Of a DNA stretch of 35,835 bases, positions 1-35,835 are shown piece by piece. Under the pieces are notes generated by a model, which saw only the letters and a program-made list of their open reading frames with translations, made no database searches and had not been told where the DNA came from. The stretch's first letter is position 1; each line of letters starts with the position of its first letter. Both the position numbers and the translations under genes were made by a program. Origin of the DNA: Desulfovibrio sp. (GTDB taxonomy: Bacteria; Desulfobacterota; Desulfovibrionia; Desulfovibrionales; Desulfovibrionaceae); NCBI GenBank assembly GCA_031272715.1, contig JAISTH010000030.1, positions 1 through 35,835 on the forward strand, given 5' to 3'.

Positions 1-78
1 CGATGCGATTCTGAGTTTTTGTCAAGATGTACGGAAAATGATCTAACTTTAAAAAATTTCTGGCTATCTCATACTTAA
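1..78 (+). pseudogene. possible remnant of the ATPase part of a DUF1703-type gene
   Basis: In frame 1 the first 78 bases read through to a TAA and contain LKNFWLSHT. This resembles the short 'K-N-Y-W-F-x-T-G-T' block that in AAA-ATPase/DUF1703 proteins sits some 50 residues before the nuclease domain encoded at about 410-1168. The match is short, so this is a weak call. If right, the gene has been split by about 300 bases of non-coding DNA at 79-410. The stretch 79-345 is AT-rich, has stops in all frames and shows no recognisable gene. Confidence 0.25.
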
Positions 79-345
79 CGTTACTGACACTTCTATTTAT
101 TATTTGTAGATAAGCTATATATTGATGGTCGCAATTTATTTGAAGACAACTTCAACGCATTGCTGGGGTGGAGACGGAATATAGTCGGACTTTCAAATAA
201 TTATGTGACCATCTATAAGTAGAATTTTTTAAAATAGCTCTAGTTTACTAAGTAAGCTCTTCACAATTTCTCATATATTTTTGTTGAAGGCAACAAGGTC
301 TAGTGCGTAATGACAAGTCGTGCTAGCCTCCGCTGCGGTGTCTTA

Positions 346-27065: not shown

Positions 27066-28628
27066 ATGGAACTCTACATCGCAATATTGCTGCTCCTTGT
27101 CGCGCTGGTGGCAGGCAGCGCCGGCGGCGCCATCGTCCACGGACGCATCGTGGGCAGGCGGCTCGGCGACGCCCGGGAACTGGCAAGGCGCATCATAGAC
27201 GAGGCGAGGAAGGAGGCGCTGGCCCAGAAGAAGGAGATCCTCATCCAGGGCCAGGACGATCTGTTCAACCAGAAACGGGAGATGGAGAACGAGCACAAGG
27301 AGCGGGAGCGGGAGGTCAAGGGCAGGGAGCGGAAGCTGGACGAGATGACCGCCAGGCTCGAGGAGAAGCTGGAGAAGGCCACCTCCAAGGAGCGGGAACT
27401 GCTGAAGACCGAGAAGGACCAGGCCCGCAAGGAACGCGCCCTGGCCGAGGAGGAGGCGAATCTCGCCATGCGGGTGGGGGAGCAGGACAGGGTCCTGGCC
27501 GAGATATCGGGACTCACCCCCGAGCAGGCCAAGGAGCGCCTCTTCGCCGAGATCGAGTCCAAGACCCGCCACGAGTCCGCCAAGATGATCCGCCAGATCG
27601 AGACCCAGGCCATGGAGACCGCGGACCGCAAGGCCAGGGAGATACTCAGCAACGTCATCCAGCGCTACGCCGGGGACTACGTCAACGAGCAGACGGTGAC
27701 GGCGGTGACCCTGCCCAGCGAGGACATGAAGGGGCGCATCATCGGCAGGGAGGGGCGCAACATCCGCGCCCTCGAGGCCGCGACGGGGGTGGACCTGATC
27801 ATCGACGACACCCCGGAGACGGTCATCCTCTCCGCCTACAGCCCCATGCGCCGCCAGGTGGCCAAGATGGCGCTTGAGCGGCTCATCCAGGACGGCCGCA
27901 TCCACCCCGCCCGGATCGAGGACATCGTCGCCAAGTGCGAGAAGGAGATGGACGCCAAGGTCAAGGAGATCGGCGAGCAGGCCACCTTCGACGCCGGCGT
28001 CCACGGCATCCATCCCGACGTGGTCCGCCTGCTGGGGCAGCTGCGCTACCGGACCTCCTTCACCCAGAACGTGCTCCAGCACTCCCTGGAGGTCTCGGCG
28101 CTGTGCGGCATGCTCGCCGCGGAACTGCGCATGGACGTGAAGAAGGCCAAGCGCGCCGGACTGCTCCACGACATCGGCAAGGCCGTGGACCACGAGGTGG
28201 AGGGGCCCCACGCCCTGATCGGCGCGGACATCGCCAAGAAATACAGCGAGGGCGGGGAGATCGTCCACGCCATCGCCGCCCACCACGAGGACACGCGCCC
28301 GTCGACGGCCCTGGCCGTCCTGGTCCAGGCCGCGGACTCCATATCCGGCGCCCGCCCGGGCGCCCGCAAGGAACTGCTGGAGAACTACGCCAAGCGCCTC
28401 GAGGATCTGGAGCACATCGCCATGTCCTGCGAGGGCGTCGCCAAGGCCTACGCCATCCAGGCCGGCCGCGAGGTGCGGGTCATGGTCAACGCCGAGTCCG
28501 TGGACGACGACACGACGTACATGCTCTGCAAGGAGATATCCGAACGCATAGAGCGCAACCTCACCTATCCCGGCCAGATCCGCGTGACCGTCATCAGGGA
28601 GCGACGCGCCGTGGGCTACGCCAAGTAG
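27066..28628 (+). CDS. rny: ribonuclease Y
   Basis: RNase Y is a membrane-anchored endoribonuclease that starts mRNA decay. It has 520 residues: an N-terminal helix ([20 protein letters not shown]) that anchors it, a long charged coiled coil to about residue 200, a KH RNA-binding domain with [22 protein letters not shown], and an HD domain with [13 protein letters not shown] and [13 protein letters not shown] (metal His-Asp), then [11 protein letters not shown]. The end ERRAVGYAK is typical. It has a GGGGAA ribosome site. The gene after it starts 8 bases downstream. Confidence 0.97.
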
Positions 28629-28636
28629 GCCGCCCC

Positions 28637-29233
28637 ATGATCGACGTCCTGCACTGGCTGGGAGCGGCGGGGATATTCGTGCCCGCGGCGGCGGCGGGAC
28701 TGCGGGCGCGGCAGTGCGGCTCCCACTTCACCGGCGCGGCGGTCCTGGGCTGCCTCGTCGGCCTGAGCGCCCCCCTCTTCATGGACTGTCTGCTGGGGAT
28801 GGGCGTCCCCGCCATCCTGACCCGGGAGACGCCCCTCGGGGCCACGGCCCTCGGAGGGGTGCTGGGAGCCCTGTTCGGCGCCTTCAACCCGGCGACGTCC
28901 CTGGTCTTCGGATGCCTGGACGCCCTGGGACTCGGTCTCGTGGCCTGTCTCGGCAGCCTGCAGGGACTCGCCATGGGACTGCCGGCGACGGGCTGTCTCA
29001 TCCTGGGATGCGTGTCGGGACTCATACCGGGCATCCTCAGGGACATGCTGGACGGCGAGCCGATCCTCGCGCTGGAGTCGGACTTCTACGTCTCGGCGGC
29101 CATCCTCGGGCAGGTGCTCACCATAGGAAGCTGTTTCTATTCACACATGCCCCGATGGGCGTGCGTCCTCCTTGGGGCGCTCGTCTGCGCCATGCTGCGG
29201 GGCGTGCGCATCAGGCGGGAGGCCGGCCGCTGA
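28637..29233 (+). CDS. trimeric intracellular cation channel / UPF0126-type membrane protein
   Basis: This 198-residue product consists of about six or seven hydrophobic helices. The stretch GCVSGLIPGILRDMLDGEPILALESDFYVSAAILG (read in two parts around residue 130-160) matches the second repeat of the UPF0126/TRIC family ('G-x-x-R-D-x-L ... P ... Y-A-x-A-A-L-x-G'). The first repeat is less clear: GALFGAFNPATSLVF lacks the expected RD motif. Some family members are cation channels, one group is linked to glycine transport; the substrate here is unknown. It follows rny by 8 bases. Confidence 0.7.
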   Translation: MIDVLHWLGAAGIFVPAAAAGLRARQCGSHFTGAAVLGCLVGLSAPLFMDCLLGMGVPAILTRETPLGATALGGVLGALFGAFNPATSLVFGCLDALGLGLVACLGSLQGLAMGLPATGCLILGCVSGLIPGILRDMLDGEPILALESDFYVSAAILGQVLTIGSCFYSHMPRWACVLLGALVCAMLRGVRIRREAGR

Positions 29234-29278
29234 GACCGGCCCGTCCGCGGCAACCCTCTTCCCCCAGCGAGGTGAAAC

Positions 29279-30394
29279 ATGACGAAAGCTCTCGACGCCC
29301 TTTCCGAGATACTCCTGATGGGCCCCGGCCCCTCCATGGTCAACGAGGCCGTGTACAAGGCCATGGGCAAGCATCTCGTGGGGCACATGGATCCCGAGTT
29401 CATCGCGGTGATGGACGACATCAAGGGCCAGTTGCGGCAGCTGTGCGGCACCGCCAACGAGGTGACCATGCCCATGAGCGGCACGGGCTCCGCCGGCATG
29501 GAGACCTGCTACGTCAACCTGGTGGAGCACGGCGACAAGGTGCTGGTCCTGCACAACGGCGTCTTCAGCGGCCGCATGATCGACGTCGCCACGCGCCTGG
29601 GCGCCCAGGTGGACGTGCTGGAGTTCCCGTGGGGGACGCCGGTGCTGGTCCCCAAGGTCAAGGAGAAGCTGGCCGGAGGCAAGTACGCCATCGTCGCGGT
29701 CATCCACGCCGAGACCTCCACCGGGGTCTGCAACCCCGTGGAGGAGATCGGGAAGCTGGTGCGGGAGCACGGCGCACTCTATCTCGTGGACGGCGTCACC
29801 AGCCTCGGCGGCATCGAGGTGGCCCTGGACCGTTGGGGCGTGGACGCCTTCTACAGCGGCACCCAGAAATGCCTCTCCTGCCCTCCGGGCCTCTCCCCGG
29901 TGTCCTTCTCCCCCCGGGCCATCGAGAAGATCAAGGCCAGGAAGTCCAAGGTGCCCAACTGGTACCTGGACATGAACATGATCATGCAATACTGGGAGGG
30001 GGCCAACCGCACCTACCACCACACGGCTCCCGTCAGCATGAACTACGCCCTCAACGCCGCCCTGGCCCTCATCCTCGACGAGGGGCCGGAGAAGGTGCAC
30101 GCCCGGCACAAGGCCATGCACGACATGTTCGTCAAGGGCGTCGAGGCCCTCGGCTTCTCCATGTTCGTGGAGAAGCCGTACCGACTGCCCATGCTCAACC
30201 TCGTCACGTGCCCGGCGGGGGTCGACGAGGCGGCGCTGCGCAAGGCGCTGCGCACGAAGCACAACATCGAGGTGGGCGGCGGACTCGGCCCGCTGGCGGG
30301 CAAGGTCATACGCATCGGCATCATGGGCGAGACCGCCCGGGAGGCCAACGTGCAGCGCCTGCTGGACGCCCTGGCGAAGGAGACCGGACGCTGA
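29279..30394 (+). CDS. class V aminotransferase (alanine/serine-glyoxylate aminotransferase type)
   Basis: This is a PLP enzyme of 371 residues in the serine-pyruvate/alanine-glyoxylate aminotransferase group. It has LLMGPGPSMVNEAVYKAMGKHLVGHMDPEF at the start, a Gly-rich cofactor loop (MSGTGSAGMET), HAETSTGVCNPVEEIG, LVDGVTSLGGIEVALDRWGVDAFYSG with the PLP-binding Asp, and the Schiff-base lysine in SGTQKCLSCPPGLSP. The C-domain has YHHTAPVSMNYAL. GAGGTG precedes the ATG. Likely reactions are pyruvate/glyoxylate transamination; some relatives act on phosphonates or purine-derived compounds, so the exact substrate is open. It converges on glmU. Confidence 0.9.
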   Translation: MTKALDALSEILLMGPGPSMVNEAVYKAMGKHLVGHMDPEFIAVMDDIKGQLRQLCGTANEVTMPMSGTGSAGMETCYVNLVEHGDKVLVLHNGVFSGRMIDVATRLGAQVDVLEFPWGTPVLVPKVKEKLAGGKYAIVAVIHAETSTGVCNPVEEIGKLVREHGALYLVDGVTSLGGIEVALDRWGVDAFYSGTQKCLSCPPGLSPVSFSPRAIEKIKARKSKVPNWYLDMNMIMQYWEGANRTYHHTAPVSMNYALNAALALILDEGPEKVHARHKAMHDMFVKGVEALGFSMFVEKPYRLPMLNLVTCPAGVDEAALRKALRTKHNIEVGGGLGPLAGKVIRIGIMGETAREANVQRLLDALAKETGR

Positions 30395-30398
30395 CGGG

Positions 30399-30590
30399 CC
30401 GGATTTGGTCCAAGGGCCGAAAATGGAAAGGTCGATGCCAACCTGACCGACGACCGTATCTGGTCCAAGGACCGAAAATGGAAAGGTCGACGTCGACCTT
30501 ACCATCGACCGGATTTGGTCCAAGGACCGAACGTGGAATGATCGGCGTCAACCCGACCATCATGCGTATCTGGTCCAAGGGCCGAAAATG
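30399..30590. repeat. four tandem 55-bp repeats between convergent genes
   Basis: Copies start at 30399, 30454, 30509 and 30564, exactly 55 bases apart. Each opens CGKATYTGGTCCAAGG and continues RCCGAAAATGGAAAGGTCGA; the last copy ends in the A-run of the glmU terminator. Copies 1 and 3 open CGGATTT, copies 2 and 4 CGTATCT, so the array looks like a doubled pair. GGTCC-AA-GGACC is a small dyad in each, and copy 2 also has the palindrome GGTCGACGTCGACC. No coding or CRISPR-type spacers. Confidence 0.85.
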
Positions 30591-30638
30591 GAAAAAAAAA
30601 ACGAGGCGGACGGGGCGTCATGCGCCCTGCCCGCCTCG
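30591..30638 (-). terminator. rho-independent terminator of glmU
   Basis: On the minus strand CGAGGCGG and CCGCCTCG form the outer arms (30602-30609, 30631-30638) of a GC-rich stem with an inner GGGCG/CGCCC part, followed by a run of ten T (A-run at 30591-30600). It sits 30 bases after the glmU stop. Textbook form. Confidence 0.9.
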
Positions 30639-30667
30639 CGAATTTCCGGATTCCGGACGATCCCGGC

Positions 30668-32077
30668 TCAGGACCCGGACTTGGGCTCTTCCGGGGGGAC
30701 GGCGTCCCTGCCCGCCAATCGCCGGGGGATGTTCCGCTGCCGTCCTCGCGCGATGGCCATTTCGCCCGGCCCCACGTTCCGGGTGACGACGGAGCCGGCT
30801 CCCACCAGCGCGTCGTCCCCCACCACCACGGGCGCCACCATGGCCGTGTTGCTGCCGATGAAGGCCCTCTCGCCGATGGTCGTCCTGTACTTGTGCTTGC
30901 CGTCGTAGTTGCAGGTGATGGTGCCGGCGCCGATGTTCGCCCCCGCCCCGATGGAGGCGTCCCCGAGATACGTGAGATGGTTGGCCTTGGCGCCCGGCCC
31001 AAGGACCGCATTCTTCAGCTCGACGAAGTTCCCGACATGGGAACCCGCCTCGAGCCGCGCGCCGGGCCGCAACCGCGCGAACGGCCCCACGATCGCCCCC
31101 TCCCCCACGACCGCGTCCTCGATGTGGGAGAAGGAACGGATCACCGCCCCCCGTTCCACCGTGCAGTTGCGCACCACCACGTGGGAGAGGCACTCGGCCT
31201 CCGACGCGATCCGGCTTGCGCCGTAGATCTCGCAGGGACCGGTGAGACGCGCGCCAGGGGCGACTTCCGCAAGGGGCCCCACCCGGACCAGGGACGGGGC
31301 GTGGATCACGACGCCGGACTCGAGCAACGCCTCCACCCTCGCCTCACGGAGCAGTTCCTCGCTCCGGGCCAGTTCCCCGGGGGTGTTGACGCCGAGCAGC
31401 CCCGTGTCCGCGCCGCAGGCGATCCCCAGCACCTCGATCCCCCGGCCGACGGCGAGTTCCACGAGATCCGTGACGTAGTATTCCCCCCCGGCGTTGTCGC
31501 AGGTCACCAGGGGCAGCAGTTCCTTCGCCAGGGCGAGATCCACCGCGTACATCCCGGCGTTGACCTCGCGCCCCTCGGGACCGTGCAGGGCGACGTCGAA
31601 CTCCTTCGCCTCCACGATGGACCGCACGCGGCCGTCCCCGCGCCCCCCCTCCCGGATCACCCTGCCGTAGGCGCCGGGATCGTCGAGGGTGATCGTGGCG
31701 AAGGCCAGAGGGGCGCCCTTCGTCCTTTCGAGGAAGGAGGCGACAAGGGCCGGCGTGAGCAGGGGCGTGTCACCGTTGACAAGCAGGACGCGCCGGATGC
31801 CGGCGGCCTCCATGTCCGGAAGGGCCGTGCCCAGGGCGTGGGCCGTGCCCAGTTGCCGCTCCTGGAACACGAAGCGTCCGCCGGGGAAACACTTGCGCAC
31901 GTCGTCGGCGCAATGCCCCACCAGCATCCAGACGTCCTCCCCGAGAACCGGGGCAAGCGCCCTCACGACATAGCTCGCCATGGGCTCCTCCAGCAGTTGC
32001 TGGAGGACCTTCGGCCGCGCCGAGTGCATCCTGGTCCCCTTGCCGGCGGCCAGCACCAGCACCCCTGTCCTTGACAT
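30668..32077 (-). CDS. glmU: bifunctional UDP-N-acetylglucosamine pyrophosphorylase / glucosamine-1-phosphate N-acetyltransferase GlmU
   Basis: GlmU makes UDP-GlcNAc for peptidoglycan and LPS. It has 469 residues. The N-domain has the nucleotide-binding LVLAAGKGTRMHSARPKVL, QLGTAHAL and VNGDTPLLTPALV; the C-domain is a left-handed beta helix of hexapeptide repeats with VGNFVELKNAVLGPGAKANHLTYLGD and IGAGANIGAGTITCNYDGKHK, the acetyl-CoA binding segment. It ends in basic RGRQRNIPRRL. GGAGG precedes the ATG and overlaps the end of clpB. It is the last gene of clpB-glmU, with a clear terminator after it. Confidence 0.97.
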   Translation of the reverse strand: MSRTGVLVLAAGKGTRMHSARPKVLQQLLEEPMASYVVRALAPVLGEDVWMLVGHCADDVRKCFPGGRFVFQERQLGTAHALGTALPDMEAAGIRRVLLVNGDTPLLTPALVASFLERTKGAPLAFATITLDDPGAYGRVIREGGRGDGRVRSIVEAKEFDVALHGPEGREVNAGMYAVDLALAKELLPLVTCDNAGGEYYVTDLVELAVGRGIEVLGIACGADTGLLGVNTPGELARSEELLREARVEALLESGVVIHAPSLVRVGPLAEVAPGARLTGPCEIYGASRIASEAECLSHVVVRNCTVERGAVIRSFSHIEDAVVGEGAIVGPFARLRPGARLEAGSHVGNFVELKNAVLGPGAKANHLTYLGDASIGAGANIGAGTITCNYDGKHKYRTTIGERAFIGSNTAMVAPVVVGDDALVGAGSVVTRNVGPGEMAIARGRQRNIPRRLAGRDAVPPEEPKSGS

Positions 32078-32093
32078 CCACTACCTCCGGAGG

Positions 32094-34694
32094 CTACCGC
32101 GCATCCAGGACCAGTCCGTCCTCGCCCATGTCCACGACCACCTTCTGCCCGTCCCGGATGGCTCCCGCCACGATCTCCCTGGCCAACGGCGTCTCCAGGT
32201 GCTGCTGCACGAACCGCTTCAAGGGCCGTGCCCCGTAGACGGGATCGTAGGCCGCGCCGCCGATGTAGCTCCGGGCCTTCTCCGTCAGTTCCAGCGTGAT
32301 CTTGCGATCCTCGAGCCTGCGCCGCAGGCGCTCCACCTGCAGATCGACGATCTTCACGAGCTCGTCCTTGGAGAGGGGGAGGAAGAGCACCGTCTCGTCC
32401 ACCCTGTTCAGGAACTCCGGCCGGAAGTTCCGCCGCAGCTCCTCCATGACGCTCTCCCGTGCCTCCTCGGTTATGTGCCCGTCCTTCGTGATGCCCTTGA
32501 GCAGGAACATGGACCCGATGTTGGACGTCATGATCACGATGACGTTGCGGAAATCCACGGTCCGTCCCTGGCTGTCCGTGAGCCTGCCGTCGTCCAGCAG
32601 CTGCAGAAGCGTGTTGAAGACGTCGGGGTGCGCCTTCTCCACCTCGTCGAAGAGCACGACGCAGTACGGCTTGCGCCGCACCGCCTCGGTGAGCTGGCCG
32701 CCCTCGTCGTAGCCGATGTAGCCCGGCGGGGAGCCGATGAGCCGGGACACGGAATGCTTCTCCATGTACTCGCTCATGTCGAGGCGCACCATGTTGTCCT
32801 CGGTGTCGAAGAGGGCCTCGGCCAGGGCCTTGCAGAGCTCGGTCTTGCCCACCCCCGTCGGCCCCAGGAAGAGGAAGGAGCCCGTGGGCCTTCCCGGATC
32901 GGAGAGTCCGGCCCTGGCCCTCAGGACCGCCTCGCTCACCTTCCGGACCGCCTCGTCCTGGCCCACCACCCGCCTGTGGAGTTCCTCCGGGAGCCTGAGC
33001 AGCTTCTCCCGCTCCGACTCCAGAAGCCGCGTCACCGGGATCCCGGTCCACTTCCCCACGATCTCCGCCACGTCGTCGGGCCGCACCTCCTCCCGCAGAA
33101 GCCGGCCCCCGTCCTCCGACGCGCCCCCGGAGGAGTCGGCAAGCTGCTTCTCCAGCGCCGGGAGCTTCCCGTACTTGAGCTCCGAGGCCCGGCCGAAATC
33201 CCCGGCCCGCTCGGCCTGCTCGAGGGCGAGCCTGGTCTGCTCGATCCGCTCCTTGACCTCCCGCATGGAGTCGATGGAGCCCTTCTCCCGCTCCCACTGC
33301 GCCAAAAGCGCCGCCTGCTCCCCGCGCATCTGGGCCAGCTCGTTCTCCAGCTTCTCCAGACGCTCCCTGGAAGCCGCGTCGCTCTCCTTGCGCAAGGCCT
33401 CCCGCTCGATCTCCAGCTGCATGACCTTGCGGTTGACCTCGTCGAGATCCGAGGGGAGGGAATCGATCTCCGTACGGATCATGGCCGCGGCCTCGTCGAT
33501 GAGATCTATGGCCTTGTCCGGCAGCTGGCGGTCCGTGATGTAGCGGTTGGAGAGCACCACGGCGTCCACGATGGCGGAGTCGCTGATGCGCACCCCGTGG
33601 TGCACCTCGAAGCGCTCCTTCAACCCCCGCAGGATCGAGATGGCGTCCTCCACCGTGGGCTCGTCCACCATCACGGGCTGGAACCGGCGCTCCAGCGCCG
33701 GATCCTTCTCGATGTACTTGCGATACTCGTCAACCGTGGTGGCGCCGATGCAGTGCAACTCCCCCCGGGCCAGCATGGGCTTGAGCAGGTTCCCGGCGTC
33801 CATGGCGCCTTCGGCCTTGCCCGCCCCCACGATGGTGTGCAGCTCGTCGATGAACAGGATGATCTGCCCCTCGGCCTTGGCCACCTCGTTGAGCACGGCC
33901 TTGAGCCGTTCCTCGAACTCCCCGCGGTACTTGGCCCCGGCGATGAGGGCCCCCATGTCCAGGGCGAAGAGACTGCGCCCCTTCAACCCCTCCGGGACGT
34001 CCCCCTTCACGATGCGGAAGGCGAGCCCCTCGACGATGGCCGTCTTGCCGACCCCGGCCTCGCCGATGAGGACGGGATTGTTCTTGGTGCGCCTGGACAG
34101 TATCCGGATCACCCGGCGGATCTCCCCGTCCCTGCCGATGACGGGATCCATCTTGCCCTGACGGGCCGCGTCCACCAGGTCCCTCGCGTACTTGGACAGC
34201 GCCTCGAAGGTGTCCTCGGGATTGGCGCTGGTCACCCTCGCCCCGCCCCGCAGTTCCTCCATGGCCTGCACGAAGGCCGCCCTCGTGATCTTGTATTCCT
34301 GCAGCACCTGCCCCAGCGGACAGGAACGGTCCACGTTGGTCAGCGCGGCGAAGAGATGATCCACGCTCACGTATTCGTCCCGCATCCGCTTCGCCTCTTT
34401 CTGGGCGTCCCCCAGGACCGCGGCGAGCCTCTGCGTGATGACGATCTTCGAGGGATCCATCCCCTGGCCCGAGACGGAAGGACGGCGCTTCACCGCCGTC
34501 TCCACGGCCACGGTGAACGCCCGGACCTGCACGCCCATGTGCTCGAGTATCCGCGGCACGATCCCCTTCTCCTGCCCCACGAGGGCCAGGGCGAGATGCT
34601 CGACGTCCGCCTCCTGGTGTCCCATGCCCCCGGCCAGCATCTGCGCTTCGCCGATGGCCTCCCGGGACTTGTCCGTGAACTTGCTGGTATCCAT
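32094..34694 (-). CDS. clpB: ATP-dependent disaggregase ClpB
   Basis: ClpB pulls proteins out of aggregates with DnaK/DnaJ. The ATG at 34694 ([18 protein letters not shown]) with GGAGGGG before it gives 866 residues, usual length. It has an N-terminal Clp domain, first AAA+ with Walker A GEAGVGKT and Walker [11 protein letters not shown], a coiled-coil M-domain (about 400-520), second AAA+ with GPTGVGKT and [13 protein letters not shown], arginine finger region, and a C-terminal D2-small domain. The pore loop YRGEFEERL is present. It lies 33 bases after the cbpM-like gene. A TTG start 18 bases earlier is less likely. Confidence 0.97.
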
Positions 34695-34727
34695 GCTCCC
34701 CTCCGTCCTCAAAGCCGTTCCGCGTCA

Positions 34728-35009
34728 TCAGCGGTTTTCGCCGTCCTCCAGGCCCTGCAGCGTCCGTATCGTCCGTTCCAGCATGTCGATGCGCTCGAGC
34801 AGGTCCACGATGATCGTCCCGCCCACCACCGACACCTCAAGGTCGCAACAAAGGCGCTCCAGCTTCCTCACCTTGTAGACGTCGCCGTCGAAGAAGCGGG
34901 GGGACTGCCCCTGCTCCGTCTCGATCCACCCCAGCGCCAGCAGCTCCTGCAGGCGGTCCGGGGCGATGCCGGTGACTTCCACGAATTCCTCGTATGCCAG
35001 AAGTTCCAT
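34728..35009 (-). CDS. CbpM-like chaperone modulator
   Basis: This 93-residue protein has a MerR-type winged HTH start (MELLAYEEFVEVTGIAPDRLQELLALGWIE) and a long helical second half (VDLLERIDMLERTIRTLQGL), the layout of CbpM. CbpM binds the DnaJ homologue CbpA and blocks its co-chaperone activity. GGAGGGGAG precedes the ATG. Position directly before clpB supports a chaperone role. A dnaJ/cbpA gene would normally lie just upstream; here the iscB gene starts after only 52 bases. Confidence 0.82.
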   Translation of the reverse strand: MELLAYEEFVEVTGIAPDRLQELLALGWIETEQGQSPRFFDGDVYKVRKLERLCCDLEVSVVGGTIIVDLLERIDMLERTIRTLQGLEDGENR

Positions 35010-35029
35010 CTCCCCTCCATTTTTCGTTT

Positions 35030-35056
35030 AATGGCACTACACAAAATGGCACTACA
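35030..35056. repeat. 12-bp direct repeats at the iscB/cbpM boundary
   Basis: AATGGCACTACA occurs at 35030-35041 and again at 35045-35056, 15 bases apart, in the 52-base gap between the iscB stop and the cbpM start. AT-rich on the iscB side and high GC on the other, so this is probably at or near the element's right end. Confidence 0.6.
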
Positions 35057-35061
35057 GACTA

Positions 35062-35835
35062 TCACGTCTTAACCCACTCCCGCATCCTGCTGGTCGCCGC
35101 CGAGACCCTCACAAGACCTTTCAGGTTCACGGTCTTGCTGCTCTTTCCGCTTTCCGTCTTCAGACGGTTTCCGTGTATGTCCTTCAACACACAATTTCCG
35201 GCACTTCTCACGCCGCAAAGAAACCATGTCCTCCCATTGTATGTCACTTTGTCGTTGACGCGGAACCCGAACTTGCACTTGCTTCTGTTCGCAAGAATCC
35301 TTGCATGATGCTGCTGCGCTGGATGCGAGTAGCCGTTTATATATCTGGATTTCTTCAATGCCTGCCCCTGGGATCGTTGATATGTTCCCTTGGCGTGACA
35401 CACTTCCATCAAATATCCGTCGGGTATGCTCACATCGTCCACATCGGCACCGTTGTCATACAAGTAGAAGAGGGATATGCACACCGCATCGTTCACGTGG
35501 GATTTTGGCAGACCGAAATGTTGCCGTATGGCCTTCGTGTCGCCTCCGGACGTTTTCGTGAACGGGATGCCATTCTCCGTCAAATATTCGCAAATGCGAC
35601 CGTTTATGATGTCCGTCTGCGTCGCATGCCTTGTCTTGGACCTGTCGCCATTTCTGTTGTTCAGGCAGACCAGCCCGTTGTCCGCTTTCCTGTGGCATTC
35701 GCGACAAAGCGTGACTAGATTGTCCGGAATATCGGCTCCCTGTTCCCGCCTTGGCTTTATGTGGTGAACCTCCAGTTGCACGTTTTTCTTTCCGCACTCC
35801 TGACAGGTGTAACCGTCCCTGTCCAGGACGTACTG
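35062..35835 (-). CDS. iscB: IscB RNA-guided endonuclease (3' part, runs off the right edge)
   Basis: IscB is a nuclease encoded in IS200/IS605-type elements and guided by an omega-RNA; it is held to be the ancestor group of Cas9. The visible 257 residues start inside the HNH domain: a C-x2-C zinc knuckle (YTCQECGKK), catalytic His-His in LEVHHIKPR, NLVTLCRECH with the second C-x2-C. After about 60 residues comes the RuvC-III part GLPKSHVNDAVCIS, with the His and Asp of the third RuvC motif, then a basic C-terminal region (KCKFGFRVNDKVTYNGRTW, the DNA-contacting end of IscB). The N-terminal PLMP, RuvC-I and bridge helix lie beyond 35835. Lower GC than neighbours. Nothing in the visible part is broken, so it may be active. 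Other HNH proteins lack the H-x-x-D-A RuvC-III motif at this spacing. Confidence 0.88.
   Translation of the reverse strand, partial: QYVLDRDGYTCQECGKKNVQLEVHHIKPRREQGADIPDNLVTLCRECHRKADNGLVCLNNRNGDRSKTRHATQTDIINGRICEYLTENGIPFTKTSGGDTKAIRQHFGLPKSHVNDAVCISLFYLYDNGADVDDVSIPDGYLMEVCHAKGTYQRSQGQALKKSRYINGYSHPAQQHHARILANRSKCKFGFRVNDKVTYNGRTWFLCGVRSAGNCVLKDIHGNRLKTESGKSSKTVNLKGLVRVSAATSRMREWVKT

Follow-up and report, generated by a model that had tools for sequence, protein, structure and literature searches.

The IscB proteins are already known as relatives of the gene-editing enzyme Cas9, and the HEARO/IscB elements that encode them integrate at ATGA or GTGA. IscB is usually assigned to the IS200/IS605 carrier group, whose members to our knowledge lack inverted repeats and target duplications, and how IscBs without a neighbouring transposase move is, as far as we know, an open question in the field. 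The published properties of IscB include a 5' guide and a target-adjacent motif (part of PMC9640706), and few IscBs were found beside a transposase (part of PMC9755519). IStrons, which combine a group I intron with an insertion sequence, are described as rendering insertion harmless to the host gene (part of PMC4227781).

The element described here is like the IscB/OMEGA (HEARO) elements in its RRXRR and HNH protein (seen in family B, below), in right ends that lie at start codons, and in a putative structured RNA upstream, with host DNA on its 5' side. It differs from them in its long inverted end repeats, its short target duplications and a right end that finishes GGAGG; its target is NNNNAT^G rather than ATGA/GTGA, and the HEARO Rfam model RF02033 has no match in the genome. 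Unlike IS200/IS605 elements it has both inverted and direct repeats, and no Y1 TnpA was found to go with it. It shares with IStrons the strategy of harmless insertion, but would achieve this by rebuilding translation initiation at a start codon and not by RNA splicing. As HEARO elements are known at ATGA/GTGA, the siting at start codons may be partly known; the form with inverted repeats and duplications, and the right end that bears a putative Shine-Dalgarno (SD) sequence, we consider new. Our literature search, a limited one that an earlier printed account may have escaped, found no report of start-codon insertion by IscB elements.

The window, which is the whole 35,835 nucleotide stretch of DNA that was analysed, is an entire contig (C18) of a Desulfovibrio assembly of 101 contigs and 80% completeness. 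The features at issue lie at its right edge:

32094..34712, minus strand: clpB, the next gene in the operon after cbpM; an open reading frame named by eye from its translation
34728..35009, minus strand: cbpM-type gene (MerR_2 in Pfam, with a weak CbpM match in NCBIfam); its start codon adjoins the element
35008..35013, minus strand: GGAGAT, predicted right copy of the target duplication, by analogy with the GCGTAT pair of the C57/C84 copy
35014..35018, minus strand: GGAGG that closes the element, 4 nt ahead of the ATG; putative replacement SD, putative in both element origin and function
35014..35042, minus strand: right terminal inverted repeat, with 24/29 positions the same as in the C57 and C9 left ends
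35062..35835, minus strand: C-terminal half of IscB (HNH, RuvC-III and C-terminal domain), severed by the contig end at 35835

The iscB frame in the open reading frame list has 257 codons and runs without a stop on the minus strand from 35835 to a TGA at 35062-35064. In profile searches it matches positions 185-313 of the 314 of NCBIfam guided_IscB (102 bits, E 2.9e-29, a score under the 175-bit cut-off that is to be expected of half a protein), Pfam HNH (2.3e-14) and solved IscB structures (HfmIscB 9k2z, E 2.4e-16, and also OgeuIscB). Both the HNH and RuvC-III regions are present, and its identity as an IscB is confirmed by homology far beyond chance. The original prediction had put the HNH and RuvC-III half of an "intact-looking" IscB here, in the same direction as cbpM-clpB; the identification and orientation are borne out, and "intact-looking" applies to the C-terminal half alone, which is open in the window. 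A 936-base query (34900 to 35835) found no contig of the assembly that extends the sequence past 35835; other contigs match query positions 106-519 alone. Since the assembly is so fragmented and incomplete, the missing half of IscB is an assembly gap. The closest IscB match among 36 relatives of the same genus is 44% identical.

The genome contains several copies of this element, which we call family A, and of a related family B. Family A has three right ends, in the window and on C84 and C95 (which match the window at 98.1% over 108 nt and at 94.6% over 111 nt, respectively), and two left ends on the omega-RNA side, C57:5028-5144 and C9:1-117, which were found through the inverted repeat described below. 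The C95 copy carries an in-frame stop, and a 5'-truncated family A iscB fragment (L003:1495-1761, on C64) follows a tRNA-Met gene at a distance of about 40 nt. Where families A and B overlap, in two pieces, their identity is 49% and 55%, and family B has an N-terminal half with RRXRR plus HNH (229 bits). Its left ends on C59, C81 and C82 come from the 202 collected contig ends; of these, 136 have sequence of their outer 300 nt in common with another end and 66 have no partner. Comparison of an A/B C-terminal alignment with genome contigs gave a single short match of 14 residues in Pectobacterium, so no close relative of the two families was found among those contigs. A further IscB relative in the genome is the 481-aa RRXRR protein encoded at the start of contig C58 of this genome, G000 (L120:1-1443), in which no HNH domain was found and which we take to be IsrB-like.

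Both families have terminal inverted repeats, 24/29 in A and 19/23 in B. The left end of family A reads CCTGAATTTTCCGTGAAATGGCACTACAC and its right end, reversed, CCTCCATTTTTCGTTTAATGGCACTACAC. In a scan of 4.80 million positions (both strands of 2.40 Mb) the A repeat occurs at 24/29 or better at just the two left and three right ends, and the B repeat at three left ends, one right end and one place on C79 that is taken as chance. The ends match in inverted and not in direct orientation, the best 22-mers scoring 19 and 18 inverted against 15 and 14 direct for A and B, respectively. Direct repeats are found at these same ends. The family A copy that runs from C57 to C84 has the 6-bp repeat GCGTAT, with ...GGAGGTAGAGCGTAT as left flank on C57 and GCGTATGCATCC as right flank on C84; C57 carries lipB-lipA and C84 a multihaem cytochrome gene, and in relative G017 a lipA-like gene (by eye) lies directly before a cytochrome gene, the product of which shares 51% identity with the C84 cytochrome, and no element separates the two genes. 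The family B copy C81/C57 has the 8-bp repeat ATCGCTGA on both sides, at the end of a reductase-like gene on C81 (...ATCGCTGA) and before an E2-type dehydrogenase gene on C57 (both by eye). Thus inverted repeats with a target duplication, the features of a DDE-moved transposon, are present in A and in B, in one junction pair per family and with different duplication lengths (6 and 8 bp). All five family A junctions fit NNNNAT^G with AT at the cut (right GGAGAT, GCGTAT and GAGCAT; left GCGTAT and GGTCAT), and C95 has one extra base between GGAGG and the six-base repeat.

A third inverted-repeat IscB element is L021 of genome G014 (IscB 464 bits), whose repeat scores 21/22 at its best position, where 342 mismatched pairs reach 20 at most; its flanks show no clear target duplication. 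It lies between rimP-like and nusA-like genes (by eye), and AGGAG stands in its right end, ahead of the nusA ATG. Inverted repeats were rejected as a general IscB feature, as none above 17/22 was found in 18 plasmid loci, which is within the range of mismatched pairs. Among viral IscB loci, repeats of at least 19 occur in 3/125 against 0/750 mismatched pairs, all three being shared palindromes, and repeats of at least 17/22 in 29/125 against 62/750, palindrome-free cases included; similar repeats may be present in further IscB groups. Three of the palindrome-free viral-contig loci (L301, L303 and L307) have an inverted repeat with a AGTCAAGAA core that matches at 17-18 of 22 between the two sides.

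In the window, cbpM begins 52 nt past the iscB stop on the same strand. The element had been predicted to end within 52 bases of cbpM, and its end can now be placed 4 nt before the cbpM ATG. The open reading frame list for 28000-35835 has no dnaJ-type frame between iscB and cbpM, and the single DnaJ_C match of the whole assembly is on C67 in a gene that we read as the canonical dnaJ, in agreement with the original observation that the dnaJ-type gene expected beside cbpM is not seen. Of 60 relatives searched 43 match the cbpM-clpB stretch, and the best 19 of these 43 loci were excised; cbpM is present in all 19, and one (L057) is interrupted by its own contig end, which leaves 18 readable. In every one of the 18 a dnaJ/cbpA-type frame ends 11-180 nt before the position of the window cbpM ATG, and no element is present. 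These upstream frames have the same DnaJ-like C-terminus, and DnaJ and DnaJ_C domains were confirmed by Pfam in the one that was tested. The element therefore very probably splits a cbpA-cbpM-clpB operon, of which the cbpA side would lie outside the assembly. The suspected position in a chaperone operon thus gains support from the element-free gene order of relatives, a comparison that the original prediction had proposed, and from the same right end at two other sites in the genome.

Family A lands in or beside a start codon that is restored by the repeat. Its three right ends read AAAAATGGAGG, followed by 4, 4 or 5 nt and then ATG. Two of these ATGs open clear genes (cbpM and the cytochrome gene, whose ATG is likely the true start because a signal-peptide-like sequence, read by eye, follows it); that of C95 opens no convincing gene. 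A start codon is thus no strict requirement, and start-codon insertion was rejected as an absolute rule for the family. The right end of element B (C57) is not at a start codon. In the C57/C84 copy the native GGAGG remains to the left of the element, and a second GGAGG closes the right end, with 4 nt between it and the ATG. We read the right-end GGAGG as the element's because the inverted repeat reaches its last AGG and GCGTAT starts after it, and because the C9 left flank lacks GGAGG and C95 has it without a clear gene. These features speak for a GGAGG that belongs to the element, though it could be the target's own SD and the support is short of proof. A native GGAGG occurs at most 70 nt upstream of the cbpM position in 15 of the 18 relatives (8 as TGGAGG), against 406 of 3800 random 70-mers of the same loci, so that the GGAGG of the window copy may have either origin.

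A TnpA gene had been named as something to look for. The Y1 kind (Y1_Tnp, PF01797) has no match in the assembly, from which, at 80% completeness, such a gene could be missing, and terminal inverted repeats are present instead. The inverted repeats and short duplications suggest that a DDE-type enzyme moves the element in trans, and so point to an unexpected kind of mover for IscB. The B left end folds better than all 200 shuffles (z -3.15), and the A left end folds weakly (7/200 shuffles as good, z -1.89).

We consider it probable, with room for doubt, that cbpA-cbpM-clpB was split at the cbpM start codon by one of several copies of an IscB (OMEGA) transposable element. The element would span from its left end through iscB to its right end, about 50 nt past the iscB stop. 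The left end probably doubles as the 5' hairpin of the omega-RNA, and the left flank would be transcribed as the guide, by analogy with guide use in published IscB work, so that IscB-omegaRNA could cut empty alleles and favour spread or retention of the element. Movement would depend on a transposase in trans, probably of a type that makes inverted repeats and target duplications, and the right end would supply an SD in place of the one displaced by insertion, so that host genes such as cbpM-clpB could stay translated. The predicted left junction of the window copy has the left end starting CCTGAATTTT after ...GGAGAT at cbpA, which gives the predicted order cbpA, ...GGAGAT, CCTGAATTTTCC..., full iscB.

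An ordinary IS200/IS605-type IscB element with a Y1 transposase in trans, in which the inverted repeats are a shared hairpin and the direct repeats chance, seems unlikely to us. IscBs are known from IS200/IS605 elements (part of PMC9640706), and at some viral IscB loci (L393, L264 and L274) the same palindrome near both ends mimics an inverted repeat; against this, the A and B ends match inverted and not direct, the 6-bp and 8-bp direct repeats sit at the exact ends, and the Y1_Tnp search of the 80% complete assembly was empty. It is much less probable still that this is a fixed, domesticated IscB that is non-mobile and has become a regulator or a component of the chaperone operon. Its strand, that of cbpM-clpB, and the open C-terminal half in the window would suit such a role, but the same right end is found at a third site and ahead of a cytochrome gene unrelated to the operon, another copy has lost its 5' part, the C95 copy has its in-frame stop, and the element is absent from the cbpM site in all 18 readable relatives. 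Misassembly, in which a repeat end was joined to the cbpM contig by chance, is a natural concern in a fragmented assembly where 136/202 contig ends share sequence with another; we regard it as highly improbable here, as the junction lies about 820 nt inside the contig, the other two right ends stop at exactly the same point, C57 and C84 together give a coherent duplication and a relative has that gene order free of the element.

Across this bacterial order, thirteen right ends could be placed in all (C18, C84, C95, C57 (B), L018, L019, L021, L228, L230, L410, L411, L412 and L413), and an ATG follows directly in all but the B end (in A, after the 4-5 nt duplication); 9 of these 12 were placed independently of the ATG, by sharing between copies or by inverted repeat, and L018, L411 and L412 by motif plus ATG. 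The neighbours include nusA- and murJ-like genes, all downstream genes except cbpM and the cytochrome being named by eye, and the frames that follow C95, L018 and L413 do not make convincing genes. The set leaves out L020, L225, L226, L036, L037 and L040, whose right ends were not placed, L227 and L229, which stop inside the gene, and many weaker matches. Here and in the viral loci below, start-codon siting is seen well beyond this genome. Genome G172 has three copies of one IscB family (L228, L230 and L410), each with its right end directly before an ATG, that of a lipoprotein-, a murJ- and an integrase-like gene (by eye).

Viral contigs supplied 160 IscB loci (the best 80 of 137 and the best 80 of 136), 150 of which have at least 150 nt after the stop and 136 of which are distinct. 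The motif GGG(G)T[AT]TC is present in 27/136 distinct loci. Counting frames of at least 60 codons (at least 40 if ended by the contig), there are 15 start codons 12-21 nt after the motif, an interval picked post hoc, against 15 in the following 98 positions. Fourteen of the 27 motif loci have a start at 6-25 nt; three of these have an SD-like word and three a stop/start overlap. Only some of the elements have a putative SD in their right end. Stop/start overlap was rejected as a general IscB feature; it is weak in viral loci, where a one-base overlap occurs in 14/136 against 21/384 control open reading frames, and 8 of the 14 have a frame of at least 60 codons. In 4 of 18 plasmid loci (L234, L235, L247 and L248) the iscB stop overlaps the start of the next, annotated gene by one base, as if the host ATG completed the iscB stop.

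We put forward tentatively, as a possibility that we judge more doubtful than probable, that IscB elements are translation-start specialists that insert between SD and start codon, that their right ends restore initiation either by a new SD (family A and the element before nusA) or through overlap of the iscB stop with the host start codon, and that one lineage left the IS200/IS605 mode for inverted repeats and target duplications. If true, insertion at start codons with rebuilt initiation would account for the presence of RNA-guided elements before essential or heat-shock genes, and start-codon insertion would tie the IscB target motif to the commonest landmark of bacterial genes.

We note that the genome is rich in other repeats. 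The left edge of the window (1-120) belongs to a repeat common to five contig ends (C15, C18, C48, C50 and C78), and other contig-end repeat families have 16, 14 and 7 members.
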